IMG/VR virus record: IMGVR_UViG_3300040806_001388
Location: 1 to 24,688 of that record
Source of the DNA: a virus
Length of the DNA: 24,688 nt
Direction: 5' to 3' (one strand)
The notes under the pieces are model-generated. The model worked only from the letters and a program-made list of their open reading frames with translations. It had not been told where the DNA came from and did no database searches. Both the position numbers and the translations under genes were made by a program. Every line of letters begins with the position of its first letter. The first letter of the stretch is position 1. Below are positions 3,018-23,378 of this stretch, in pieces.

Positions 3018-3046
3018 GCTAAACCCTTACCCCACAAGGACTTAGC
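3018..3046 (-). terminator. Terminal hairpin of the minus-strand array
   Basis: In minus-strand RNA, GCUAAGUCCUU pairs with AAGGGUUUAGC in an 11-bp stem that uses one G-U and one U-G wobble. On the plus strand these are mismatches, so the hairpin is meant for minus-strand RNA. It follows the last minus-strand gene and shares its stem with the repeated cassette-boundary elements. Confidence 0.6.
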
Positions 3047-3075
3047 GCAATGAGAAAATTCAGATTTTGAGGAGA

Positions 3076-3276
3076 TTATTCTTGTTTCATCTCCTCAATG
3101 TGAAAGGAATCCCAATCGGTATTTATTTCATAAAGCTTATGTGAAGGATCGGGTAGAGCGTCAATCGCCCAATCCTCGACCCAATCCAATTCTTCCTCTT
3201 TAGAAAGGTTGTCAGGAATCTCAATCTCAGCGGAATAGTTGTGGAACTCGGTCCAAAAAACTTTTACTTTCTTCAT
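3076..3276 (-). CDS. Small acidic hypothetical protein, 66 aa
   Basis: Begins MKKVKVFWTEFHNYSAEIEI and is acidic and Trp-rich (WVEDWAIDALPDP). It starts six bases after the stop of the Cys-rich gene, with no Shine-Dalgarno or promoter of its own, so translational coupling is likely. Its opening (short basic strand, then Glu/Trp-rich helix) resembles other small proteins in the array, but the family is not recognised. It is the last gene of the minus-strand array. Confidence 0.65.
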   Translation of the reverse strand: MKKVKVFWTEFHNYSAEIEIPDNLSKEEELDWVEDWAIDALPDPSHKLYEINTDWDSFHIEEMKQE

Positions 3277-3282
3277 TTTAGT

Positions 3283-3951
3283 TTAGTGTGAAAGGAATCG
3301 AACAGTCTTTTGAGTTGTCCAGCACAAGCCACAATCGGCGCAGGACTTTACTTTTCCAGTTTGCTCGGGGCAAGTAAAAGAGGAACCCTCGAAAGATTCT
3401 TCCGCAGCATACGATTGGAATGAATCCATCTTATCATAAGATTCATTCTTCGATAGACGGATATTACATCGGTCTGCGAATCGCATATTGAGAAGGCGAA
3501 TCTCATTATAGATGTTTCCCTTGCTCCGCGCAGTATAACCGAATAGCGCAAGCTTGTCTCCCCACTTGATCATTTGATCCGCCCAAAAGCGAACATAGGG
3601 GACGGAATAGAAATCACCTAGAACGTGCAATCGAATTAGAATGCCTTGCTTATGCTTTTTCATTAGCAATTCGATTTGCTTATTCAGGTTGTGCATTAGA
3701 TTGCGCGTATCGTATCGAAGCGCAAACGGCATGTTATCCCCATAGCAATCGTTCCAATGGTGGCACGATTTAGGGCACGTTGCGCGCTCTTGAAGCGAGA
3801 TAGAATAGATGCGCTTACCCTTATGCTTAGATGCCGTGATAACGTATCCGAGTTTGGCATTGTTCGATCCTGGTTTCAGGACCGAAAGATCGGAAGGCTT
3901 GACGGATTTGCGGTAGCGTGTGTGCGCGGGGCGCTTCAAGGTCTGATTCAT
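3283..3951 (-). CDS. GP88-like cysteine-rich phage protein, 222 aa
   Basis: The arrangement NAKLGYVITASKHKGKRIYS, then TCPKSC...CYGDN, then ILIRLHVLGDFYSVPYVRFW and a C-terminal CADCGLC cluster matches the phage 'gene product 88' family as I know it. That family is typified by a mycobacteriophage protein with conserved CP-x-x-C and HxxGDF motifs. The Cys clusters suggest a bound metal or iron-sulphur centre; the biochemical role is unknown. It is the longest gene of the minus array and the first of its cassette. Its start is fixed by a leaderless-type promoter (TATAAT, six bases, ATG). Confidence 0.7.
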   Translation of the reverse strand: MNQTLKRPAHTRYRKSVKPSDLSVLKPGSNNAKLGYVITASKHKGKRIYSISLQERATCPKSCHHWNDCYGDNMPFALRYDTRNLMHNLNKQIELLMKKHKQGILIRLHVLGDFYSVPYVRFWADQMIKWGDKLALFGYTARSKGNIYNEIRLLNMRFADRCNIRLSKNESYDKMDSFQSYAAEESFEGSSFTCPEQTGKVKSCADCGLCWTTQKTVRFLSH

Positions 3952-3957
3952 GCGTGT

Positions 3958-3985
3958 ATTATATCACACTCCGCCGAGTTTTCAA
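3958..3985 (-). promoter_or_regulatory. Leaderless promoter of the GP88-like gene
   Basis: TTGAAA, 16-base spacer, TATAAT, then six bases to the ATG at 3951, so the expected transcription start is the A of ATG. It lies just downstream of a cassette-boundary hairpin element. Confidence 0.75.
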
Positions 3986-4000
3986 GGAGAAAGTGGAGGA

Positions 4001-4110
4001 AAATAAAAAAAAGATTTTGCTTGACACGACGTAAACCCTTGTGAAATAAGGACTTAGCGCGGAGCCGCCGCCCGCTCCGCTTATAAAGCCCCGTAGAACC
4101 CCAACTTACG
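4001..4110 (-). terminator. Cassette-boundary element (tandem hairpins)
   Basis: Reading the minus strand: a GC hairpin (GCGGAGC/GCTCCGC), then TAAGTCCTT/AAGGGTTTA pairing with two wobbles, then a T-rich stretch (CTTTTTTTTATTTT), then the next promoter. It separates the tmRNA-like RNA from the GP88-like cassette and probably terminates transcription. Confidence 0.65.
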
Positions 4111-4137
4111 TCGGGCAAATTTTCTTGAGAATTGTTT

Positions 4138-4220
4138 TGGTGGAGGTGGAGGGATTCGAACCCTCGTCCGAGAAGGTTCCCGCTTTGGGCTTTCCAACTC
4201 GTCAAAACCAGTACACCCCC
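4138..4220 (-). ncRNA. Miniature tmRNA-like RNA (tRNA-like domain only, 83 nt)
   Basis: The 5' end GGGGGUGUACUGGUUUUGAC matches the tmRNA 5' consensus (GGGG..G....GGUUUCGAC), and its last 32 bases, GGACGAGGGUUCGAAUCCCUC then CACCUCCACCA, match the tmRNA 3' end. The acceptor stem is a full 7 bp with G3-U70, the alanyl-tRNA synthetase identity pair; CCA is encoded. The T arm is perfect (GAGGG/CCCUC, loop UUCGAAU). As in tmRNA there is no D stem. The hundreds of bases of tag-coding and pseudoknot RNA that a true tmRNA carries are replaced by about 30, which may form a CGGGA-ACCU-UCUCG hairpin. It is not a normal tRNA: no five-pair anticodon stem with U33 can be drawn. It follows a 78-aa gene with no promoter of its own, and a boundary element follows it. 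It may be charged with alanine or bind SmpB, or it may be a remnant. Confidence 0.75.
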
Positions 4221-4228
4221 GAAGGGTG

Positions 4229-4252
4229 GGGGAGAGGTCGAAACCCCTCCCC
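4229..4252 (-). other. GC-rich hairpin just upstream of the tmRNA-like RNA
   Basis: In minus-strand RNA GGGGAGGGG pairs with CCUCUCCCC (one G-U wobble) around a UUUCGA loop. It lies between the stop of the 78-aa gene and the RNA's 5' end. It may direct processing, protect the RNA or attenuate read-through. Confidence 0.6.
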
Positions 4253-4258
4253 GATCAT

Positions 4259-4495
4259 CTAGCGACTACCGCCGCCTTGAGTGGCAGCGTGAGCAGCCTG
4301 ACGACCAACATGGCGACCGCCAGCATACTCGCGAGGAAGTAGACGGCGCAGAGACTTGTATGCCTCTAGCGCGTTATCGACATCAGCCGAGCTAGCCTCG
4401 GGGTTGTGATAGATGTCTGCGAAAAGTTCACCTGCCTGGACAGAGAGACCTTGAATTTTCGCCGCGAGGGCGTTGCTGTAAAAGTTATCGTTCAT
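4259..4495 (-). CDS. Small hypothetical protein, 78 aa
   Basis: MNDNFYSNALAAKIQGLSVQ begins a mainly helical protein whose last 25 residues are Arg/Gly/His/Gln-rich (REYAGGRHVGRQAAHAATQ), suggesting an unstructured nucleic-acid-binding tail. A leaderless promoter fixes the start. The tmRNA-like RNA lies 38 bases past its stop and appears co-transcribed with it. The basic tail makes an RNA-related role conceivable, but no family is recognised. Confidence 0.7.
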   Translation of the reverse strand: MNDNFYSNALAAKIQGLSVQAGELFADIYHNPEASSADVDNALEAYKSLRRLLPREYAGGRHVGRQAAHAATQGGGSR

Positions 4496-4501
4496 GTGGG
4501 T

Positions 4502-4530
4502 ATTATACCTCAGAAGAGAAGAGAAGTAAA
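4502..4530 (-). promoter_or_regulatory. Leaderless promoter of the 78-aa gene and tmRNA-like RNA
   Basis: TTTACT, 17-base spacer, TATAAT, six bases to the ATG at 4495. No Shine-Dalgarno lies between the box and the start. Confidence 0.7.
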
Positions 4531-4548
4531 GAGAAAAGTGGGAGAAAT

Positions 4549-4773
4549 TTACCAGTCGCAGCCGAAGTCGTTTTCACACTCGAATTGCTCCTCATAGAAG
4601 CTATCGAGGAAGGCATCCTCAGCGTACCCGTAGGACTCATCCATGCCCATACCCGCAGAGGTGAAGGCGGATTCATCATCCCAGTCGAGAACATCATCGT
4701 CGAAGTCCTCGTCGGGTTGGGTGTAGCAGAAATCGAAGTCCTCTTCGTTATCGTAGTCGTTCATGTTTTCCAT
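4549..4773 (-). CDS. Extremely acidic small protein, 74 aa (DNA-mimic candidate)
   Basis: Counting residues gives 17 Asp and 11 Glu out of 74, with no Lys, Arg or His. It also has many Phe, Tyr and Trp (DEDFDDDVLDWDDE is typical). This composition is that of phage DNA-mimic proteins such as T7 Ocr or some anti-restriction and anti-CRISPR proteins, although I recognise no homology to any. The start at 4773 is set by a leaderless promoter; an upstream in-frame ATG at 4986 would place the promoter inside the gene. It has its own promoter within a four-gene cassette. Confidence 0.7.
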   Translation of the reverse strand: MENMNDYDNEEDFDFCYTQPDEDFDDDVLDWDDESAFTSAGMGMDESYGYAEDAFLDSFYEEQFECENDFGCDW

Positions 4774-4779
4774 GTGTGT

Positions 4780-4808
4780 ATTATACCCTAGAGAGAGGTG
4801 AAAGGCAA
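4780..4808 (-). promoter_or_regulatory. Leaderless promoter of the acidic protein gene
   Basis: TTGCCT, 17-base spacer containing CTCTCTCTAG, TATAAT, six bases to the ATG at 4773. Confidence 0.75.
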
Positions 4809-4814
4809 GAGAAA

Positions 4815-5051
4815 TCAGAGAGAAATGAGGTGGCGGATAGCCGAAAAGGGAAGCTCGCAACCCTCGCTCTCCCAGCGGTTTACGATTGCTTGAATGTGAT
4901 AGTGAGCGAGCGAGTCGGGCATATCCAACCCGTGGACGCTGTAGTCCGCGCAGGCATCCCGATAGGGTGCCCAGCTCAACCCGCAAGCGGAGTCGTCAAT
5001 GGCAAGGAGAAGAGCAGCGAGCTTGCTGGGCATATGAGGTGTTTGCTTCAT
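4815..5051 (-). CDS. Small hypothetical protein, 78 aa
   Basis: MKQTPHMPSKLAALLLAIDD begins a soluble-looking protein with a YRDACADYSVHGLDMPD segment. An ATG at 5060 is also in frame, but it is part of the -10 box itself (TATAATGG), so the real start must be the ATG at 5051, seven bases past the box. Family not recognised. Confidence 0.65.
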   Translation of the reverse strand: MKQTPHMPSKLAALLLAIDDSACGLSWAPYRDACADYSVHGLDMPDSLAHYHIQAIVNRWESEGCELPFSAIRHLISL

Positions 5052-5058
5052 GTGTTCC

Positions 5059-5086
5059 ATTATAACCTATTATCGGCAGAATGCAA
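5059..5086 (-). promoter_or_regulatory. Leaderless promoter of the 78-aa gene at 5051
   Basis: TTGCAT, 16-base spacer, TATAAT, seven bases to ATG. The spacer (TCTGCCGATAATAGG) is nearly identical to that of the promoter at 6694-6721, so the two promoters are copies of one another. Confidence 0.7.
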
Positions 5087-5105
5087 GGGTAAACTTTAGG
5101 AAATC

Positions 5106-5201
5106 CTAGAGAATCGCGCAGAGTTGGAAGAGAACTCCGAACGCGAGGAAGATACCGACGATCTGAATGATGTGGAGCAGGTTCACTAGTCTAACTTTCA
5201 T
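5106..5201 (-). CDS. Single-span membrane peptide, 31 aa
   Basis: MKVRLVNLLHIIQIVGIFLA continues hydrophobic to the end (FGVLFQLCAIL), giving one transmembrane helix with a short basic N-terminus. Although tiny, it has its own promoter placed exactly as for its neighbours (TATAAT, six bases, ATG) and is the first gene after a boundary element. Other cassettes also carry very short hydrophobic peptides. Confidence 0.65.
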   Translation of the reverse strand: MKVRLVNLLHIIQIVGIFLAFGVLFQLCAIL

Positions 5202-5207
5202 GCCCCC

Positions 5208-5235
5208 ATTATACCACACTTTGGCGAGAATGCAA
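5208..5235 (-). promoter_or_regulatory. Leaderless promoter of the 31-aa membrane peptide
   Basis: TTGCAT, 16-base spacer TCTCGCCAAAGTGTGG, TATAAT, six bases (GGGGGC) to the ATG at 5201. Confidence 0.75.
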
Positions 5236-5239
5236 GGGG

Positions 5240-5349
5240 AAAAGAAGAAAAAGATTTTGCTTGACAGGTCATAAACCCTTGTCAAATAAGGACTTAGCGC
5301 GGAGCCGCCGCCCGCTCCGCTTATAAAGCCCTGTAGAACAAGGACTTAG
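5240..5349 (-). terminator. Cassette-boundary element (tandem hairpins)
   Basis: Same architecture as at 4001-4110. A TAAGTCCTTG arm, the GCGGAGC/GCTCCGC hairpin, the TAAGTCCTT/AAGGGTTTA hairpin (loop ATTTGAC) and an alternative TTGACAAGG/CCTGTCAA stem are followed by CTTTTTCTTCTTTTCCCC and then the next promoter. Confidence 0.65.
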
Positions 5350-5392
5350 GAAGAAAAGTTTTTTGAAGAAAATAGAAGCTGGAGCCAAGTTC

Positions 5393-5530
5393 CCCAGCAT
5401 ATAACTATTATTGCACTCTCGACTTGGCACCCGTATGCATCCGAACGCGAGAGGTGGGGAGCGACCCCGTGCTAACCCTCCCATAAGGGAGGCGCTTTGA
5501 GCTTAATAACCTATTTATACTCGCTCAAAC
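5393..5530 (-). other. Highly structured unrecognised stretch at a cassette end
   Basis: Several perfect hairpins follow each other on the minus strand: CTCG/CGAG (5520-5533), CCTCCC-TTAT-GGGAGG, GGGG-TCGCT-CCCC, CTCTCG/CGAGAG around a 27-base loop, and GCTGGGG/CTCCAGC around a seven-base loop. No cloverleaf or known RNA family fits, and the one long frame through it has no ribosome-binding site or promoter. It occupies the cassette-end position taken by the tmRNA-like RNA elsewhere, so it may be another small RNA. Confidence 0.4.
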
Positions 5531-5537
5531 GAGTTGA

Positions 5538-5762
5538 CTACGCTTGCGTCATATATCGGTGATTCACACCGTTACCGCTAGTCCATTGCCGCGAGTTGCG
5601 ATAATGACGGTTCCACGCTTTCTTAGTAGCGTTGAGCGTACCTTGGTAGGTATAGCTTTGAGTTCGCAGATCGAAGATACGATAAGTGATGTTCCCATCA
5701 AGTTCGATGCGGGTCATGACTGCGTTCTGGTTCGAGCGGACAATGTTAGTGAAAATGTTCAT
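5538..5762 (-). CDS. Small hypothetical protein, 74 aa
   Basis: Begins MNIFTNIVRSNQNAVMTRIE and is basic and Asn/Tyr/Arg-rich (KKAWNRHYRNSRQW), with a strand-like centre (NITYRIFDLRTQSYTYQG). Unlike most of the array it has a Shine-Dalgarno (AAAGGA, 10 bases before ATG) and no adjacent -10 box, so it is probably read from the upstream gene's transcript. It is the last protein gene of its cassette. Confidence 0.65.
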   Translation of the reverse strand: MNIFTNIVRSNQNAVMTRIELDGNITYRIFDLRTQSYTYQGTLNATKKAWNRHYRNSRQWTSGNGVNHRYMTQA

Positions 5763-5858
5763 GTGTTTAGTTTCCTTTTGAGGGTGTAGTTAGTTAGTGT
5801 TTGGGCATCACACCCAATCGTAGGTTTCGAGGGATAACCTATAACCCTTTCTCTTATA

Positions 5859-6212
5859 CTAGGCTTTCGCTTCGATAGCCTTGTTCAGTTTGGTTTCGAT
5901 ATCCTCTTTGATAGCGTTCTGCTCATCGAGAATGTATTGAGCGTTACGCTCTTCTTGGTCGATCTTTTCGATCCAAGCGTAGTGCTTGGCACGACGAGCT
6001 TCAGCAGACTGAGGACCGCTTCCGAGAATCTTCTTGGCAGCGATAATGCTCTTCTTGATCTCACCCAGCTCTTCGACGAGCGGGGCAAGTTCGGGATCGT
6101 TTGCCGCATCGGCTTTCAGTTGCTTCATGCGAAGCCGTTCAAGCTTGGCTTCGTGCTCGGCAATAAGTTCAGCGGGAGTGCGTTGAGTGCGTTTCTTAGT
6201 GGTGTTTTCCAT
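5859..6212 (-). CDS. Coiled-coil hypothetical protein, 117 aa
   Basis: After a basic N-terminus (MENTTKKRTQRTPAELIAEH), residues about 15-65 and 75-117 form two long charged helices with heptad-like Leu/Ile spacing, consistent with a coiled coil. No enzymatic motif is present. A leaderless promoter fixes the ATG at 6212. About 95 bases separate it from the next gene, more than elsewhere in the array. Confidence 0.7.
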   Translation of the reverse strand: MENTTKKRTQRTPAELIAEHEAKLERLRMKQLKADAANDPELAPLVEELGEIKKSIIAAKKILGSGPQSAEARRAKHYAWIEKIDQEERNAQYILDEQNAIKEDIETKLNKAIEAKA

Positions 6213-6219
6213 GTGTGTT

Positions 6220-6248
6220 ATTATACCTTAGAGGGTAGCGTTTGTCAA
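6220..6248 (-). promoter_or_regulatory. Leaderless promoter of the coiled-coil gene
   Basis: Consensus TTGACA, 17-base spacer, consensus TATAAT, seven bases to the ATG at 6212. It is one of the two best sigma70 matches in the array. Confidence 0.8.
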
Positions 6249-6267
6249 TAGGAAAGTGGAGAAATTT

Positions 6268-6483
6268 CTAGAAGTATCCTTCGTCGTAGAGTTCAGCGAA
6301 CATGGGGTCATCATCGGCCCATGCATCGCAGCAGTCGGTGAACGCTTCAACGGGCGAGAAGCCGTTAGCGAACAGGTCGTGAATCATCGTCAGATCAGGC
6401 ATATCTTCGTGCCCGAAGCCGAACGTGGCAAGGCAAAGGGAATCGAGTTGGTTGTACCAGTCTTCGTAGGTCATCTTGTTCAT
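6268..6483 (-). CDS. Small acidic phage protein, 71 aa
   Basis: MNKMTYEDWYNQLDSLCLAT begins an acidic, helix-rich protein with a FANGFSPVEAFTDCCDAW block and a DDDPMF turn. The pattern looks like a conserved small phage protein, but I cannot attach a family name. A leaderless promoter sets the start, and its -35 box lies within the 3' end of the preceding gene. Confidence 0.7.
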   Translation of the reverse strand: MNKMTYEDWYNQLDSLCLATFGFGHEDMPDLTMIHDLFANGFSPVEAFTDCCDAWADDDPMFAELYDEGYF

Positions 6484-6489
6484 GCGTGT

Positions 6490-6518
6490 ATTATACCCTA
6501 TTGGTTAGAGGTTGTCAA
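6490..6518 (-). promoter_or_regulatory. Leaderless promoter of the 71-aa gene
   Basis: TTGACA, 17-base spacer, TATAAT, six bases to ATG. The -35 overlaps the last codons of the upstream gene. Confidence 0.8.
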
Positions 6519-6687
6519 GCGTCTTTTGGAGATTTTGCTTCATCTTTCGACGAACATACCTGCGGTCAAGGGGCTTCGCCTTGCTCGGCTTCACGCGCCA
6601 CAGGTTACAGCACTTACATCCGAATCCGCCGATGCCGTGGCGAGCGCGGAGAGCGCGGTCTGTGTTCGTGTCGTTCATCGTCTTCAT
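6505..6687 (-). CDS. Small basic protein with a CxxCC-like motif, 60 aa
   Basis: MKTMNDTNTDRALRARHGIG is followed by GFGCKCCNLW and a strongly basic tail (KPSKAKPLDRRYVRRKMKQN). Three closely spaced Cys and many Arg/Lys suggest metal or nucleic-acid binding. It is first in its cassette, with a leaderless promoter after a boundary element. Confidence 0.65.
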   Translation of the reverse strand: MKTMNDTNTDRALRARHGIGGFGCKCCNLWRVKPSKAKPLDRRYVRRKMKQNLQKTLDNL

Positions 6688-6693
6688 GCCCCC

Positions 6694-6721
6694 ATTATAC
6701 CCTATTATCGGCAGAAAGCAA
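6694..6721 (-). promoter_or_regulatory. Leaderless promoter of the 60-aa gene
   Basis: TTGCTT, 16-base spacer, TATAAT, six bases (GGGGGC) to ATG. Confidence 0.75.
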
Positions 6722-6740
6722 GGAGCAACTGAAGGAAATA

Positions 6741-6820
6741 AAATCTTTTTTTCTTCTTGACAGGTCGTAAGTGCTTGTCAAATAAGGACTTAGCGCGGAG
6801 CCGCCGCCCGCTCCGCTTAT
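6741..6820 (-). terminator. Cassette-boundary element (tandem hairpins)
   Basis: The GC hairpin is followed by TAAGTCCTT/AAGCACTTA (one C-C mismatch) and a perfect TTGACA/TGTCAA inverted repeat. Here the tract beyond is A-rich on the minus strand, so simple intrinsic termination is less convincing than at the other copies. Confidence 0.55.
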
Positions 6821-6847
6821 AGAAGCAAGAACTTTCTTGGATTTATT

Positions 6848-6898
6848 TTAGAGTTCGTAGAGTACGAACAGCAGGATAAGAAGACCCCAGACAGCCAT
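6848..6898 (-). CDS. Possible 16-aa hydrophobic peptide
   Basis: MAVWGLLILLFVLYEL starts on the stop of the preceding gene (TAATG overlap), a classic coupling signal, and is almost wholly hydrophobic. It ends its cassette just before a boundary element, like the 21-aa peptide at 7529-7594. Its size limits certainty. Confidence 0.4.
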   Translation of the reverse strand: MAVWGLLILLFVLYEL

Positions 6899-7161
6899 TA
6901 CTCGTTCCTAGTGTGATGATCCCGCAGGAATCCATACTCTTGGTTCGACCGCTGGAGTCGAGCAAGATAATCATCGTAGTTCTCACGAACCTTGATGATA
7001 GCGTCCGTGTGAGACGGAGCAGAGACTCGGATGAGGTTTCCCTTGTTTCCAAGGTGAAGATTGAACCACTTGGTAACTCCATCATCACGAAGGTTAGCGG
7101 AGAGGAAGAGAGCGTCGATGGTCGTGCCATCGGTAAGATCGAGGTTGTTCATCTTGTTCAT
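6898..7161 (-). CDS. Small hypothetical protein, 87 aa
   Basis: MNKMNNLDLTDGTTIDALFL begins a mixed strand/helix protein (VTKWFNLHLGNKGNLIRVSA, then a charged helix). The pattern suggests a small alpha/beta fold like others in the array. The start is fixed by a leaderless promoter. Family not recognised. Confidence 0.7.
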   Translation of the reverse strand: MNKMNNLDLTDGTTIDALFLSANLRDDGVTKWFNLHLGNKGNLIRVSAPSHTDAIIKVRENYDDYLARLQRSNQEYGFLRDHHTRNE

Positions 7162-7167
7162 GCGTGT

Positions 7168-7196
7168 ATTATACCAGAGTTAGGGGAGAAGGTCAA
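7168..7196 (-). promoter_or_regulatory. Leaderless promoter of the 87-aa gene
   Basis: TTGACC, 17-base spacer, TATAAT, six bases to ATG. It overlaps the end of the upstream gene. Confidence 0.8.
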
Positions 7197-7374
7197 GGGT
7201 TTTGTAGGTATTTTTCTTTTCGATGTGAACTTCTTTGTGCTCGAACCCGAGATCCTCTACCAGATGATAGAGACGCTTTCCCGCGCTCTCTTCGTCAAGG
7301 TGGACCGTATCAACGTACTGCTGAGAGTTGAGCGTCATGAGGACCAACCAAACCGAGTTCTGTTCTTTCTTCAT
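7180..7374 (-). CDS. Small protein, 64 aa, paralogue of the gene at 8121-8315
   Basis: MKKEQNSVWLVLMTLNSQQY then a charged helix and LVEDLGFEHKEVHIE. It aligns along its whole length with the 64-aa protein at 8121-8315: a hydrophobic strand, a D-[ST]-[IV]-H segment, ES, a basic helix, LV-[ED]-D-x-GF, then EV-x-IE. Both are first genes of their cassettes. The fold is probably strand-helix-strand; function unknown. Confidence 0.7.
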   Translation of the reverse strand: MKKEQNSVWLVLMTLNSQQYVDTVHLDEESAGKRLYHLVEDLGFEHKEVHIEKKNTYKTLDLLP

Positions 7375-7380
7375 GCGTGT

Positions 7381-7408
7381 ATTATACCACACTCTGGCGA
7401 GAATGCAA
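7381..7408 (-). promoter_or_regulatory. Leaderless promoter of the 64-aa gene at 7374
   Basis: TTGCAT, 16-base spacer TCTCGCCAGAGTGTGG, TATAAT, six bases to ATG. It is almost identical to the promoter at 5208-5235. Confidence 0.8.
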
Positions 7409-7414
7409 GGGGAA

Positions 7415-7497
7415 AACAAAAAAAAGAATTTGCTTGACACGACCTAAGTGTCTGTCAAATAAGGACTTAGCGCGGAGCCGCCGCCCGCTCCGCTTAT
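7415..7497 (-). terminator. Cassette-boundary element (tandem hairpins)
   Basis: The GC hairpin is followed by a perfect TTGACA/TGTCAA inverted repeat and CTTTTTTTTGTTTTCCCC on the minus strand, then the next promoter. Confidence 0.65.
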
Positions 7498-7528
7498 CGG
7501 AGCAAGGGAATTCCGAGAAAACTTTGCC

Positions 7529-7594
7529 CTACCCTACTAGCGCATAGAGCACAAGCCCCAGCACTAGTAGAGCGAGAACGCGCTTATGAATCAT
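7529..7594 (-). CDS. Small membrane peptide, 21 aa
   Basis: MIHKRVLALLVLGLVLYALV has a basic N-terminus and a single hydrophobic span. Its ATG overlaps the preceding stop as ATGA, indicating translational coupling. It is the last gene of its cassette. Confidence 0.5.
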   Translation of the reverse strand: MIHKRVLALLVLGLVLYALVG

Positions 7595-7896
7595 GCGCCT
7601 GCCTCGAAGTGATTAGGAGTTCCGCTTTGGTTTTTGATTGACCAAGCATCATAAAGACTAATAGCTCCAGCTCGAACGGCAGGACGCTCATTACTTGCCA
7701 CGAATTCGAATTGACGACGCAAGAGTTTTGCTTCATCTTCCGTGAGGGCAATGTCTACCTCATCCTTATCGCTATTCTTCCTGTAAATGCTGACCAGGAC
7801 TGAGAAGATAGGCGTAGCATCTTCATAACACTCTGCGAGCATCATTCCAATCGTAGCCTCAAGCTTTTCCATTTTCATGTTTTGGTAACGAATCAT
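7591..7896 (-). CDS. Hypothetical protein, 101 aa
   Basis: Mostly helical, with the segments EATIGMMLAECYEDATPIFS and ALTEDEAKLLRRQFEFVASN. It starts one base past the preceding stop with a good GGAG (seven-base spacer) and no promoter of its own, so it is expressed with the 63-aa gene. Family not recognised. Confidence 0.7.
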   Translation of the reverse strand: MIRYQNMKMEKLEATIGMMLAECYEDATPIFSVLVSIYRKNSDKDEVDIALTEDEAKLLRRQFEFVASNERPAVRAGAISLYDAWSIKNQSGTPNHFEAGA

Positions 7897-7897
7897 T

Positions 7898-8089
7898 CTA
7901 GTTCTCCATTTGGTGGTAGTAGAGAGAAGGGCTTTCCTCGAACTGTTCGATAACTTGATCGAAGGGCTTATCGAGGTAGATGGACTTGATCACGTTGTCT
8001 CCATCGAAGAGACTCACCATAGTCGAGTCGCCAGCAGAGGTAAAGAGTAGCGCGGAGTACTTGTCCATGATGTAGCGTTTGATCTTCAT
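7898..8089 (-). CDS. Small hypothetical protein, 63 aa
   Basis: MKIKRYIMDKYSALLFTSAG starts at a leaderless promoter. The pattern is strands (ALLFTSAGDSTMVSLFDG) followed by an acidic helix. The stop precedes the next gene by one base, giving a two-gene operon. Confidence 0.7.
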   Translation of the reverse strand: MKIKRYIMDKYSALLFTSAGDSTMVSLFDGDNVIKSIYLDKPFDQVIEQFEESPSLYYHQMEN

Positions 8090-8095
8090 GTGTGT

Positions 8096-8124
8096 ATTAT
8101 ACCTTAGAGAGAGGAGAAGGTCAA
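8096..8124 (-). promoter_or_regulatory. Leaderless promoter of the 63-aa gene
   Basis: TTGACC, 17-base spacer with CTCTCTCTAAGG, TATAAT, six bases to ATG. Confidence 0.8.
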
Positions 8125-8315
8125 GAAGAAAGTTGAGAAAGAGAGCAGATAGGACGAGGTTCGATCTCGACCTCACCTTCTGGGAATCCACAATCGTCTA
8201 CGAGGTACTTCTTCCGCCTTTCGGATGACTCCCTCGAATCATGGATGGAGTCGAGGCACTCATAGTTATCAGCGGCGAGGAGGACGACGTACAAGGTGAG
8301 AGGGGTGTCTTTCAT
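8121..8315 (-). CDS. Small protein, 64 aa, paralogue of the gene at 7180-7374
   Basis: MKDTPLTLYVVLLAADNYEC then a charged helix and LVDDCGFPEGEVEIE. It aligns without gaps with the 64-aa protein at 7180-7374. Both are first in their cassettes with closely related promoters, so gene and promoter may have duplicated together. Confidence 0.7.
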   Translation of the reverse strand: MKDTPLTLYVVLLAADNYECLDSIHDSRESSERRKKYLVDDCGFPEGEVEIEPRPICSLSQLSS

Positions 8316-8321
8316 GCCCCT

Positions 8322-8349
8322 ATTATAACACACTCTCGAAGGATTGCAA
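8322..8349 (-). promoter_or_regulatory. Leaderless promoter of the 64-aa gene at 8315
   Basis: TTGCAA, 16-base spacer TCCTTCGAGAGTGTGT, TATAAT, six bases to ATG. Confidence 0.75.
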
Positions 8350-8352
8350 GAG

Positions 8353-8452
8353 GAAAAAAGAAAAAGATGTGAACGTAAGTGCTTGCTAGATAAGGACTTA
8401 GCGCGTAGCCGCCGCCCGCTCCGCTTATAAAGCCCTGTAGAACAAGGACTTA
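8353..8452 (-). terminator. Cassette-boundary element (tandem hairpins)
   Basis: It has the TAAGTCCTTG arm, a GC hairpin with one changed base (GCTACGC) that weakens one pair, TAAGTCCTT/AAGCACTTA, then CTTTTTCTTTTTTCC on the minus strand. The TTGACA/TGTCAA part is lost. Confidence 0.6.
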
Positions 8453-8468
8453 TAAGCGAAAAGATTTT

Positions 8469-8762
8469 CTAGTTTGTGCTTGCTTCCCTAGGGAGATTCC
8501 AAGGGTAGAGCGTCAGGTATAGATCAGAAATAGTTTCGAATTGGCTACCGTAAAAGTAGCCCAATTCAGAGACGAGACCGTGAACCATTCCAAACATCTC
8601 GATCTCGCCATCGGGACGCTCTTCGATCTCGTAGATCTCCCAAGCCCATCCTGACGTACTGTGGAAGACTTCCCCAAGGGGTTTCTTCGGCTTTTCGCCA
8701 TCAGTCGAGCCGATAGGCGTCTTCGCCATCTGGGCGAGTTCTTTCAGTTCGTTCATTTCCAT
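8469..8762 (-). CDS. Small acidic hypothetical protein, 97 aa
   Basis: MEMNELKELAQMAKTPIGST leads into a strand-rich middle (GWAWEIYEIEERPDGEIEMF) and ends with an aromatic segment. It starts two bases after the preceding stop with AAGGAG seven bases before ATG and no own promoter. Family not recognised. Confidence 0.7.
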   Translation of the reverse strand: MEMNELKELAQMAKTPIGSTDGEKPKKPLGEVFHSTSGWAWEIYEIEERPDGEIEMFGMVHGLVSELGYFYGSQFETISDLYLTLYPWNLPREASTN

Positions 8763-8764
8763 AA

Positions 8765-8968
8765 CTACTCTCCTTGAGTGTTAGCGTAGAAGAATTTGGC
8801 AATGTCGTCATCCGTGAGTCCATCGCCCATGTGATCGTACATATCCTGCTCACAAGCGAGGCAGTATGCCCCAGGCTCGTAGTGGGAGGTCGTGCAAGCC
8901 TTGCAAGCCTTTTCGGCAACGGATTCGAAGAGGTCGTTCATCATTTCGAGGTATTCGATTTTCTTCAT
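8765..8968 (-). CDS. Small zinc-ribbon-like protein, 67 aa
   Basis: MKKIEYLEMMNDLFESVAEK is followed by CKACTTSHYEPGAYCLAC, two CxxC pairs ten residues apart, the spacing of a small zinc ribbon. An acidic helix follows (GDGLTDDDIAKFF). The start is set by a leaderless promoter; a longer frame from 9127 would run through that promoter. A DNA- or RNA-binding or adaptor role is possible. Confidence 0.7.
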   Translation of the reverse strand: MKKIEYLEMMNDLFESVAEKACKACTTSHYEPGAYCLACEQDMYDHMGDGLTDDDIAKFFYANTQGE

Positions 8969-8974
8969 GCGTGT

Positions 8975-9003
8975 ATTATACCCTAGAGAGAGGTTCGGGT
9001 CAA
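8975..9003 (-). promoter_or_regulatory. Leaderless promoter of the zinc-ribbon-like gene
   Basis: TTGACC, 17-base spacer with CTCTCTCTAGGG, TATAAT, six bases to ATG. Confidence 0.8.
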
Positions 9004-9203
9004 GAGAATTCGGGAAGAAGTTCTTCGATGTAGATGGAGAGAGGACCATCAGGGTCTTCGACTGAGAGAAGGTCGGTGAGGTCCTCTTTGATGTCGAGGG
9101 CCTCTTGCTTGGTCGCGCACCTGGCATAGGGCCAGGAGACGAGCTTGTCGTCGTTGTGAATGCGGACTTGCCAATAATGGGTAGTGATCGGGGTCAACTT
9201 CAT
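9000..9203 (-). CDS. Small hypothetical protein, 67 aa
   Basis: MKLTPITTHYWQVRIHNDDK then a helix (TKQEALDIKEDLTDLLSV) and a final strand (LSIYIEELLPEFS), similar in layout to the 64-aa paralogue pair though sequence similarity is weak. It is first in its cassette with a leaderless promoter. Confidence 0.65.
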   Translation of the reverse strand: MKLTPITTHYWQVRIHNDDKLVSWPYARCATKQEALDIKEDLTDLLSVEDPDGPLSIYIEELLPEFS

Positions 9204-9209
9204 GCGTGT

Positions 9210-9237
9210 ATTATACCATGTCCTGGTGAGAAAGCAA
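9210..9237 (-). promoter_or_regulatory. Leaderless promoter of the 67-aa gene at 9203
   Basis: TTGCTT, 16-base spacer TCTCACCAGGACATGG, TATAAT, six bases to ATG. Confidence 0.75.
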
Positions 9238-9240
9238 GGG

Positions 9241-9350
9241 GAAAAAAGAAAAAAGATTTTGCTTGACGAGTCGTAAGTGCTTGCTACATAAGGACTTAGC
9301 GCGGAGCCGCCGCCCGCTCCGCTTATAAAGCCCTGTAGAACAAGGACTTA
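9241..9350 (-). terminator. Cassette-boundary element (tandem hairpins)
   Basis: Full-length copy with the TAAGTCCTTG arm, GCGGAGC/GCTCCGC, TAAGTCCTT/AAGCACTTA and CTTTTTTCTTTTTTCCCC on the minus strand. Confidence 0.65.
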
Positions 9351-9359
9351 GAGCGTCAA

Positions 9360-9641
9360 TTATTTTTCGTATTGAACACGGTATTCGTCAGCACGATACC
9401 AACGGTCGCCACAGCACTCACAGTCCAGACCGCTCTCGATGCCTTGGAAGTAGATGCCAGCGTATTTCTGGACAAGCTCGTCAGCCTCATCGGTAGACTC
9501 AGCCATGACCCAAACATCGACCTGCTGGTCTTGCCAATCGTAGGCAGCGAACACACCACCGAGGTCAGCGGGACCAGTCCACTCGGGGTAGTCATAGCTA
9601 CCGCCGCTGCTGTTCTGAGTGTAGTAGAACTTCTTTTTCAT
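9360..9641 (-). CDS. Conserved phage protein with a CECCGDRWY motif, 93 aa
   Basis: MKKKFYYTQNSSGGSYDYPE, a WVMAESTDEADELVQKYAGI helix, then YFQGIESGLDCECCGDRWY. The combination of a Tyr-rich start, 'ADEA' helix, GIYF and D-C-x-C-C-G-D-R-W matches an uncharacterised small protein family I associate with many large phages. The Cys triplet could bind metal. The start is set by a leaderless promoter. Confidence 0.7.
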   Translation of the reverse strand: MKKKFYYTQNSSGGSYDYPEWTGPADLGGVFAAYDWQDQQVDVWVMAESTDEADELVQKYAGIYFQGIESGLDCECCGDRWYRADEYRVQYEK

Positions 9642-9647
9642 GCGTGT

Positions 9648-9676
9648 ATTATATCAGGCGACCTTGGTGCGGACAA
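9648..9676 (-). promoter_or_regulatory. Leaderless promoter of the 93-aa gene
   Basis: TTGTCC, 17-base spacer, TATAAT, six bases to ATG. The upstream gene's stop abuts the -10 box, so the -35 lies inside that gene. Confidence 0.7.
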
Positions 9677-9833
9677 GGTTTTTATTGGATTTTTTGTACT
9701 CTCGAACGAGTCGAGTGATGTACTTACCAACGCCCTTGTGGGTCTTGGTGCTACCGTCCTCGAAGGTGACGGTGAGGGAGTAGTAAGCCCCGAAGCCGAG
9801 GAGACGTTGTTCGTGGAGGTGGGTAACTTTCAT
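9654..9833 (-). CDS. Small basic hypothetical protein, 59 aa
   Basis: MKVTHLHEQRLLGFGAYYSL, strands (LTVTFEDGSTKTHKGVG) and a basic C-terminal helix (KYITRLVREYKKSNKNLVRT). It is the first gene of the whole minus-strand array, with a leaderless promoter. Basic charge suggests nucleic-acid contact, but this is a guess. Confidence 0.65.
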   Translation of the reverse strand: MKVTHLHEQRLLGFGAYYSLTVTFEDGSTKTHKGVGKYITRLVREYKKSNKNLVRTKVA

Positions 9834-9839
9834 GCGTGT

Positions 9840-9867
9840 ATTATACCATGCCGAGACGAGAATGCAA
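9840..9867 (-). promoter_or_regulatory. Leaderless promoter of the 59-aa gene
   Basis: TTGCAT, 16-base spacer TCTCGTCTCGGCATGG, TATAAT, six bases to ATG. Confidence 0.75.
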
Positions 9868-9878
9868 GTGGAAAATTG

Positions 9879-9927
9879 AGAAGAATTTCCTCGTTGACGT
9901 AAGTGCGCGTGTACCAAGGACTTACGA
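9879..9927 (-). terminator. Reduced cassette-boundary hairpin
   Basis: On the minus strand CGTAAGT pairs with ACTTACG (7 bp) around a 16-base loop. This is the TAAGT/ACTTA hairpin without the GC hairpin or a long T-tract. It marks the upstream limit of the minus-strand array. Confidence 0.45.
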
Positions 9928-9933
9928 GAATTC

Positions 9934-10114
9934 ACCGGAAAATATTGCGTCGATGGTCCCATATGCGGGACAGCCAGCAGCCATAGATACAAGGGACTCC
10001 TATTACTTTAAGTCCAAAAAATAAAAAAAATTATAAAATAAATTTAGGGACTCCTAGAACTTTATTTAGAACTTACTCTGAAAAAACTTCTATATAGATT
10101 GGGAGATATTTATT
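9934..10114. other. Divergent intergenic region
   Basis: It separates the minus-strand array from the plus-strand structural genes. It contains an 18-bp imperfect direct repeat, GGGACTCCTATTACTTTA (9993-10010) and GGGACTCCTAGAACTTTA (10047-10064, 16 of 18 identical). The AT-rich TTATAAAATAAATTTA between them faintly resembles a T4 late promoter. A plus-strand promoter is expected but not clearly identified. Confidence 0.45.
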
Positions 10115-21962: not shown

Positions 21963-23341
21963 AGTATTCTTACTTCGTGGCCTTCTCTTTTATAGTGCCT
22001 TTTCCTGGCAATGGCGTGATCTCGTAGGTATTTCTCTTTATCCATAAAATCATAAATATATACCTCTGATTTTGATTCATGCCGTCTCAATGCTCGTCCT
22101 AACGCTTGTAGAGTTGCTATTTCGGACTTCATACCCCGAGCATTGATCATGTGTGTTATTTCTTCAATGTTAACACCTGTTTGGAGGATTTTAGTACCAA
22201 TGAGTACGCTAGATCCCTTATGTCCTCTGAATCGAGATATACTCTCATACCGTTCTCCGATTGAGTTTGCACCCTCAAGAAATTCGCATTGTCCTCCAAG
22301 AAGGTCTTCCAAGGCTCTTCCATGCTCAAGTGATTTGGTAAGAATAAGTATACGGGCTCCGTCGTTGTTTTTTCTAATGTCATTTACAATCTCCTTTATG
22401 ATGTTATTCCGTGATTCGTTTTCGACTATGTACTTATCATAGACATCCAAGTATCCCATGTCTTCGTCTATTCCGCTCGCAGTATAAGGTCTATCTATTA
22501 ACTGAATAATAGGTTTGGTTAGTTTGCCATCTTCTACTAGCGCAGCGGTATCTACTGCCTGTATGACGGCTCCTAGCGCCCCTTCTAGGTTGTATCGGGG
22601 GATAGGGTCTCTCGGTGGTGTAGCGGTGAATCCGAGGCGATACACGGCATTTGGGAAGCTCTGAATGGCAGGTAGGGTATTTTTACCATTAGCAAACTCA
22701 TGACACTCATCAATCATTAGGACTTCTGCTTCTTCGAGGTGGGTGTCGAGGATCCTTTCGATACTTTGGATAGTGCATAGCATAATGTCACCACTAATAA
22801 AACCCTCGCCATAACAAATACCAATGCCGTCCATCCCACAAGCTTTAGTAAGAAACTCATAAGTTTGTTTGAGTAGTTGTTTAGCGTTGAAGAGGATCAC
22901 CATCTTTTTTCCCTCTAACGCCTTGACAATCCCAGCCATAATCAAAGTTTTACCTGAACCTGTAGGGGACTGGATGATACCTCTTTTATTATTCAGCCCT
23001 GCCCAGATAAGTTCTTCTTGATAGTCGTAATAGGAAAAACCTTTTATTTTAGGAGGACTTAGAGGAGTTCTAGAGATGTCGCATTCAGTTCCGTCTTCTC
23101 CTACTATCTCTGGCTCACAGTCAATTTTATTTAAATCCGCAAGTACCCTAGATAATAGACCAGTACGAAAAGAACCATTACGAGCGATAAACCTCTGCTT
23201 ACCATCCCAATGTCGGCGTTTGTAAGCAGACGAATACTCAGCCCCAGGAACCTTAAAAGAATAAAGGTCACAAAGGGCTTTTAGAAGTTCAGGATTATCA
23301 GTTTCAATCCTTGAATTTTGAGTACCAACATAGATTTTCAT
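21959..23341 (-). CDS. uvsW: UvsW-like DNA/RNA helicase, 460 aa
   Basis: This superfamily 2 helicase, in T4, unwinds R-loops and branched DNA, so switching replication from origin- to recombination-dependent and rescuing forks. Motif I is SPTGSGKT (residues 125-132), motif II DECH (211-214), motif III GFTATPP (237-243) and motif VI QALGRALRR (412-420). The 100-residue N-terminal region with YKRRHWDGKQRFIARNGSFRTG matches the UvsW substrate-binding domain. Length is close to T4 UvsW. It lies on the opposite strand to the structural genes around it, with a -10 box six bases before its ATG (leaderless). Confidence 0.9.
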   Translation of the reverse strand: MKIYVGTQNSRIETDNPELLKALCDLYSFKVPGAEYSSAYKRRHWDGKQRFIARNGSFRTGLLSRVLADLNKIDCEPEIVGEDGTECDISRTPLSPPKIKGFSYYDYQEELIWAGLNNKRGIIQSPTGSGKTLIMAGIVKALEGKKMVILFNAKQLLKQTYEFLTKACGMDGIGICYGEGFISGDIMLCTIQSIERILDTHLEEAEVLMIDECHEFANGKNTLPAIQSFPNAVYRLGFTATPPRDPIPRYNLEGALGAVIQAVDTAALVEDGKLTKPIIQLIDRPYTASGIDEDMGYLDVYDKYIVENESRNNIIKEIVNDIRKNNDGARILILTKSLEHGRALEDLLGGQCEFLEGANSIGERYESISRFRGHKGSSVLIGTKILQTGVNIEEITHMINARGMKSEIATLQALGRALRRHESKSEVYIYDFMDKEKYLRDHAIARKRHYKREGHEVRIL

Positions 23342-23378
23342 TACACTATTATAGTGTATAATCTATAAGGAGATTTAT
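23342..23378. promoter_or_regulatory. Divergent promoter region between uvsW and the gp26-like gene
   Basis: A perfect palindrome ACACTATTATAGTGT (23343-23357) contains the minus-strand -10 box (TATAAT, six bases before the uvsW ATG). A plus-strand TATAAT overlaps its edge (23357-23362), ahead of GGAG (six bases before the gp26-like ATG). The two directions would compete for polymerase, and the palindrome could be an operator. Confidence 0.6.

Follow-up and report, generated by a model that had tools for sequence, protein, structure and literature searches.

T4-like myoviruses reportedly carry promoter-early stem-loop (PeSL) cassettes, and in T4 the genes of these cassettes are leadered, with a Shine-Dalgarno (SD) sequence. 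Leaderless initiation has usually been studied singly, as for lambda cI, or as a host-wide habit. The subject here is a block of small minus-strand genes at 3.0-10.0 kb of a virus record of 24,688 bases (IMGVR_UViG_3300040806_001388; the whole stretch of DNA that was analysed, called the window below). Sixteen of these genes have a TATAAT box six or seven bases before the ATG, an arrangement that recurs in a family of marine T4-like viruses of bacteria and from which leaderless mRNAs are predicted.

PeSL cassettes of T4-like phages have been described (PMC4503421, PMC3950731). The window array resembles them in that small genes are densely packed in a T4-like phage, that a host-type promoter is repeated between the genes, at 6/16 sites with a stem-loop close by, that unrelated genes have the same promoter before them and that gene turnover is high. 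It differs in that the promoter is fused to the start codon and the mRNAs are predicted to be leaderless, and in that the stem-loop, whose role as a terminator is putative, does not precede every promoter. In haloarchaeal virus HGTV-1 (PMC3950731), most left-side open reading frames (ORFs) stand behind a TATA-like box and an inverted repeat that have been likened to PeSLs, but the promoter system is archaeal.

Cluster O mycobacteriophages (the Corndog group; PMC4351075) have sigma-70-type promoters whose transcription start (+1) is predicted on the first base of the start codon. This applies there to three of eight or nine promoters (PL1, PR2 and PL2), whereas the window, from a T4-like lineage unrelated to them, has 16 such promoters within 6 kb, every one of them in front of a small gene of its own. 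The TA-led leaderless genes of bacteria (Zheng 2011, PMC3160421) lack an SD and have a TATAAT-like box some 12 bp ahead of the start codon. The window shares both features, with a -10-like box at about that distance in 16/16 cases and no SD at the usual distance; however, TA-led genes are cellular and commonest in certain phyla, while the window holds a phage array whose promoters also have a -35 box and a conserved spacer of the ACACGC type. Leaders in Lactococcus cremoris (PMC10986495) are either shorter than 5 nucleotides (nt) or about 40 nt long, none having been found between 4 and 14 nt, a likeness limited by the fact that starts were measured in that bacterium and distances are predicted in the phages. 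The nearest system in organisation is the PeSL cassette and the nearest in leaderlessness is the set of three predicted Cluster O promoters. Searches of the open-access literature, which do not extend to subscription papers, turned up no leaderless gene array comparable to this one.

Between positions 3949 and 9845, the minus strand of the window contains TATAAT-N6-ATG 14 times and TATAAT-N7-ATG twice. All 16 minus-strand TATAAT hexamers in 3900-9950 sit at one of these two distances before the ATG of an open frame, and the plus strand of this region has none. First-order Markov sequences of the array region contained a mean of 0.026 such sites (maximum 2 in 2000 sequences), and shuffles of the whole window gave an expectation of 0.45 N6 matches, with 0/100 reaching 15. 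The -35 hexamer, which starts with TTG in 15 promoters and TTT in one, is separated from the -10 box by 16 bp in eight promoters and by 17 bp in the other eight. Those with a 17-bp spacer match TTGACA at 4-6 positions; those with a 16-bp spacer are mostly TTGC.., with a poorer match, and usually have TG or GG directly before the -10 box. The base at -1 of the ATG is C in all 16 sites, as expected of the initiator if transcription begins on the A of the ATG. The initial annotation, made from the sequence alone, had described sixteen genes with TATAAT six (twice seven) bases before the ATG and a -35-like box 16-17 bases further upstream, and these counts bear it out; its description of the genes as tiny suits 15 of them but not the remaining one, the proteins ranging from 31 to 222 amino acids (aa).

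The units of promoter plus predicted leaderless gene are all on the minus strand. Those with a 16-bp spacer are 9654..9867 (59 aa; -35 TTGCAT at 9867, TATAAT at 9845, ATG at 9833), 9000..9237 (67 aa; TTGCTT, TATAAT 9215, ATG 9203), 8121..8349 (64 aa; TTGCAA, TATAAT 8327, ATG 8315), 7180..7408 (64 aa; TTGCAT, TATAAT 7386, ATG 7374), 6505..6721 (60 aa, with homologues in relatives; TTGCTT, TATAAT 6699, ATG 6687), 5106..5235 (31 aa; TTGCAT, TATAAT 5213, ATG 5201), 4815..5086 (78 aa; TTGCAT, TATAAT 5064, N7, ATG 5051) and 3283..3985 (222 aa, phrog_2554; TTGAAA, TATAAT 3963, ATG 3951). Those with a 17-bp spacer are 9360..9676 (93 aa, DUF7296; TTGTCC, TATAAT 9653, ATG 9641), 8765..9003 (67 aa; TTGACC, TATAAT 8980, ATG 8968), which is followed by an SD-led gene at 8469-8762, 7898..8124 (63 aa; TTGACC, TATAAT 8101, ATG 8089), followed by an SD-led gene at 7591-7896, 6898..7196 (87 aa; TTGACC, TATAAT 7173, ATG 7161), 6268..6518 (71 aa, phrog_519; TTGACA, TATAAT 6495, ATG 6483), 5859..6248 (117 aa; TTGACA, TATAAT 6225, N7, ATG 6212), 4549..4808 (74 aa; TTGCCT, TATAAT 4785, ATG 4773) and 4259..4530 (78 aa; TTTACT, TATAAT 4507, ATG 4495). 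Genes are named below by the position of the ATG.

SD sites at the usual position are weak in the array. Predicted pairing to the anti-SD over the region -14 to -4 has a median of -1.1 kcal/mol for the array genes versus -5.2 kcal/mol for 22 other genes of the window (p 0.004), and most structural genes of the window carry SD-like sites. Genes without the box were said in the initial annotation to be SD-led or to overlap the preceding gene. SD-like sites are indeed found for genes 8762, 7896 and 5762 (the last, at 5538..5762 on the minus strand, encodes 74 aa downstream of gene 6212 and has a weak site, AAAAGGAAAC), and the tiny frames 6898 and 7591 overlap the preceding stop; gene 3276, which has neither, is a small exception. 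At 5051-5060 the alternative ATG overlaps the end of the -10 box, as had been pointed out, and the homologues in contigs L011 and L036 align with the downstream ATG. No other in-frame upstream start exists for 8/16 frames, and one is possible for the other eight. In relatives, the orthologous proteins start at an ATG that has the same promoter arrangement before it; the families include that of gene 6212, the most widespread of the array (13 members in 12 contigs, one contig being represented twice), gene 4495 (11 members) and the 222-aa gene (eight members). Some orthologue clusters were spurious, consisting of terminase-internal sites or of a 230-aa group with TATATT at N7, and were given no weight.

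The window is, by its sequence, a T4-like phage. Its proteins match terminase, portal, UvsW-type helicase and baseplate hub families in PHROG, each with that function, and its terminase and portal retrieve T4-like phages in tblastn at about 25-36% identity. None of the listed isolates has a terminase more than about 33% identical to that of the window (tblastn), and among its 20 listed matches the single Kyanoviridae record is no nearer than other T4-like phages. The G+C content is about 45-53% per kb in the small-gene block versus 32-42% in the structural part.

Relatives were collected in two ways: a terminase search of IMG/VR gave 80 relatives as unbiased loci, and a scan with TATAATACACGCATG gave 95 stretches that are biased towards the TATAATACACGCATG motif. 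Promoters were chosen without regard to the ATG, by a -35 match of at least 4/6, TATAAT and a G at -13/-14. Among 91 promoters chosen in this way in the terminase-fetched loci, the first ORF start lay at N6-7 in 69, at N8-25 in one and at N26-90 in nine; the remainder had a start at N91-160 (four), at N2 (one) or none in range (seven). SD-like sites were present in 2/69 of the N6-7 cases. With the pattern-fetched contigs added, 165/199 promoters had N6-7, three had N8-25 and 21 had N26-90, and SD-like sites occurred in 3/165 cases at N6-7 versus 14/21 at N26-90. The -1 base in the sites of the unbiased relatives is C in 67/72 and T in five. The N6-7 cases were supplied by 13 of the 80 loci, most others being short contigs that end before the array: all nine terminase loci with at least 6 kb upstream have sites (2-13 each, all on the minus strand), as do 3/12 of those with 4.1-6 kb. 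The count in relatives that the initial annotation had called for thus shows the arrangement to be conserved in related T4-like phages.

In a strict scan of viral contigs for the promoter plus N6, 80 loci among the matches listed were examined, in which 60/86 N6 sites had an ORF of at least 30 aa. One to four qualifying genes were present in 57/80 of these loci, so leaderless phage genes, as predicted from sequence, are not unique to this clade; none of these 80 loci is as dense as the window array. Ten collection phages, mostly T4-like or top terminase matches, were tried as comparators and set aside (39 N6 versus 29 control matches). Five of eight T4 sites were compared with the annotation, and none is an annotated start.

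Homologues of the window array genes in 22 other array sequences are leaderless in 34/45 cases by the criterion used. Among the others, the homologues of gene 4495 in G008, G016 and the phage of a single amplified genome (SAG) introduced below, and those of gene 6212 in G016 and G021, have an SD-led ATG that lies about 60-70 nt downstream of a promoter of this kind. The promoter is thus a genuine unit in its own right, with or without an ATG fused to it, and a message has either no leader or a long one. The homologue of gene 3951 in L023 has a degenerate -10 box at N7; the other non-leaderless cases follow another gene or are unclear.

The array also appears to be built of modules. Genes of the same genome that are unrelated to each other can have near-identical promoters (97% over 66 nt in G005, 91% in G007 and 89% in the window), and core promoter similarity is 0.574 between unrelated genes of the same genome, 0.576 between orthologues across genomes and 0.522 between unrelated genes across genomes. 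G007, the closest array relative examined (terminase 87% identical), has homologues for only 6/16 window array genes. These comparisons are consistent with an exchange of genes as modules, the promoter perhaps moving together with the start codon as a single unit.

A 79-nt repeated element with a GC-rich hairpin precedes 6/8 promoters with a 16-bp spacer and 0/8 of those with a 17-bp spacer. Its copies (GCGGAGC..GCTCCGC plus TAAGTCCTT..AAGCACTTA; all minus strand) lie at 9272..9350, 8374..8452, 7443..7521, 6766..6844, 5270..5348 and 4030..4108, upstream of the promoters at 9215, 8327, 7386, 6699, 5213 and 3963, respectively. Of two copies tried for fold stability, one was unusually stable (z -3.8) and the other was not (z -0.8). 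The exact stem-loop of the window has no match in other viral contigs. Several relatives have their own genome-specific repeated GC-rich stem-loop upstream of some promoters, comparable elements of the window spanning 3020-9350 (minus strand). An imperfect palindrome, TAAGTCCTT-n7-AAGCACTTA, adjoins the stem-loops, and a shared core is visible in some relatives. The stem-loop and palindrome are possibly a terminator, an operator or a recombination site. Tandem 12/18-nt repeats occur in the array region of L036 (5402-6008) and L087 (1-455 and 3852-4439).

Two further observations concern the window outside the array. Its UvsW-type helicase gene is preceded at N6 by a conserved palindromic CTATAATAGTGT-type box without TTGACA (23339-23353, minus strand), which is also found before the helicase gene in L030, L036, L038, L051, L072 and L087 and is perhaps another promoter class. 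In the 281-aa frame at 518-1363, the middle matches phrog_5070 (of unknown function, apparently repeat-rich) and the last part a nucleotide-kinase PHROG; it is possibly a fusion.

The best explanation, and quite probably the correct one, is that the small-gene region consists of modules in which a host-type sigma-70 promoter is fused to a start codon and from which leaderless mRNAs are made. In nearly every array gene the sigma-70 promoter would place +1 on the A of the ATG, and a separate leaderless mRNA would arise from each of these genes, with its 5'-terminal AUG recognised without an SD. Transcription and translation starts would then form one unit of 40-50 bp, so that genes could be gained, lost and reordered with their signals intact, which may be of benefit to the phage. 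Some promoters have a repeated stem-loop element upstream, which recalls the PeSL cassettes of T4-like phages. SD-led starts persist in second genes, in genes that lie outside the array and in homologues that begin about 60 nt downstream of the same promoter. The array is probably the early (host-takeover) region, because its sigma-70 sites are on the strand opposite the terminase-portal block. The initial annotation's proposal of self-promoted leaderless mRNAs is thereby strongly supported at the level of sequence, by the spacings, the C at -1, the lack of an SD, the bimodal distances and the orthologue starts.

Several points weigh against this reading. The 11/45 homologue cases that are not leaderless have been mentioned, and the -35 boxes of the promoters with a 16-bp spacer are weak. 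In a wider window (-20 to -3), which includes the GG before the -10 box, the SD contrast is not significant (p 0.055), so the claim that an SD is lacking rests on position as well as on strength; this GG lies at -14/-13, and if transcription began further upstream, the mRNA would contain AGGG or TGG near -15. Stem-loop elements stand before only 6/16 promoters, and they are absent from the listed intrinsic-terminator-like sites of the window. Exchange at the promoter seam is deduced from comparison, no recombination junction having been caught, and RNA 5' ends at these ATGs are predictions in all these phages. The late sigma gp55 of T4 (phrog_234) had no match in nine records, nor in the controls, which makes that search uninformative on early versus late.

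Leaderless starts might instead have been selected for translation itself, through early loading of 70S ribosomes or escape from a shut-off of SD-led mRNAs, in a programme of early leaderless and late SD-led genes. The division between leaderless array genes and structural genes with SD-like sites fits such a programme, as do the reported ability of leaderless mRNA to bind 70S particles (PMC9031893) and the presence in the same array of a mini transfer-messenger RNA (tmRNA) without an ORF. However, in some relatives the homologues have an SD-led start downstream of the same promoter, so those genes do not depend on being leaderless, and neither 11 phage records nor the SAG phage contig gave an S21 match, initiation-factor genes not having been searched. 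Selection for translation is therefore considered unlikely.

The mini-tmRNA (4138..4220, minus strand; 71.3 bits) is 83 nt long and consists of the tRNA-like domain only. A G3-U70 pair, the mark of alanine tmRNA and tRNA, can be read from its sequence. It lies between the predicted leaderless genes 4495 and 3951, and the matches in L011 and L036 lie between homologues of those genes. Such mini-tmRNAs of about 80-84 nt, with a complete tRNA-like domain, an encoded CCA and no tag reading frame, are also present in L038, L044, L087 and L185, and L130 has a 112-nt form. A Pistol ribozyme (5471..5534, minus strand; 65.5 bits against a gathering threshold of 34.5) lies directly downstream of gene 5538-5762 and is conserved in the clade, being found also in L011, L036, L038, L069, L087, L094, L097, L107, L130, L177 and L185. 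In a first set of nine loci, two of which are one contig, a tmRNA match recurred in 5/9 and Pistol in 9/9; in a second set of 11 loci each recurred in 2/11. A scheme with two programmes, in which an immediate leaderless takeover wave precedes SD-led structural genes and the mini-tmRNA and Pistol help to bring about the change, for instance through a block on ribosome rescue or the processing of array transcripts, is distinctly unlikely.

The array might also merely follow a host that habitually makes leaderless mRNAs. The true host is unproven, which leaves room for this explanation. The sole cellular genome found with a relative is that of Prochlorococcus SAG AG-409-P03, on a contig of 130,604 bases whose terminase is 67% identical to that of the window; as a single-cell genome, it points only weakly to the host. 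Its phage array occupies both ends of the contig and keeps to one strand, the mini-tmRNA and Pistol are found there too, and the contig has the same G+C contrast as the window (about 0.51 at the ends and 0.37-0.41 elsewhere). In 256 kb of the roughly 1.4 Mb of AG-409-P03's own contigs, TATAAT at N6-7 precedes 0/220 ORFs of at least 100 aa, and the record outside the phage contig has seven N6 matches versus seven for a reversed-pattern control that spans the whole record. SD-like sites precede 14% of AG-409-P03 ORFs of at least 100 aa versus 40% in the phage contig. The phages, moreover, use SD-led starts elsewhere, even for some homologues of array genes. A host habit is thus improbable, and the initial annotation's suggestion of a host, or an infected state, that favours leaderless translation is not borne out. 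A search of the genus around AG-409-P03 returned only AG-409-P03 itself, a search of the SAG phage contig for late-promoter motifs gave nothing clear, and no psbA-type match was found in 11 phage records or on that contig. The only matches to the 222-aa gene in the phage collection are six records of alphaproteobacterial phages.

Alternatively, the promoters may be real but their starts scattered from -3 to +3, giving leaders of 1-3 nt or a lost AUG, in which case the 6-nt spacing would reflect promoter shape more than leaderless translation. The choice of start by sigma-70 varies by a few bases, and 2/16 sites are N7. This is nevertheless very unlikely, since the C at -1 in 16/16 window sites and 67/72 sites of relatives puts a pyrimidine-purine initiator exactly at the ATG and N8-25 spacings are nearly absent (1/91). 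That the pattern is a coincidence or annotation artefact, with ATGs that are not starts or mRNAs from promoters further upstream, is scarcely credible: half of the frames do have possible in-frame starts further upstream, but 16 sites stand against a Markov mean of 0.026, orthologues begin at the same ATG and the other eight frames have no other upstream start.

The fusion of start-codon-proximal promoters to small genes directly affects start calling in such phages, as the longest-ORF start at 5051-5060 falls inside a -10 box. A clade in which homologues with one and the same promoter start either leaderless or SD-led offers a natural experiment on the advantage of leaderlessness. These phages suggest that a promoter fused to the start codon can act as a plug-in module for gene exchange.

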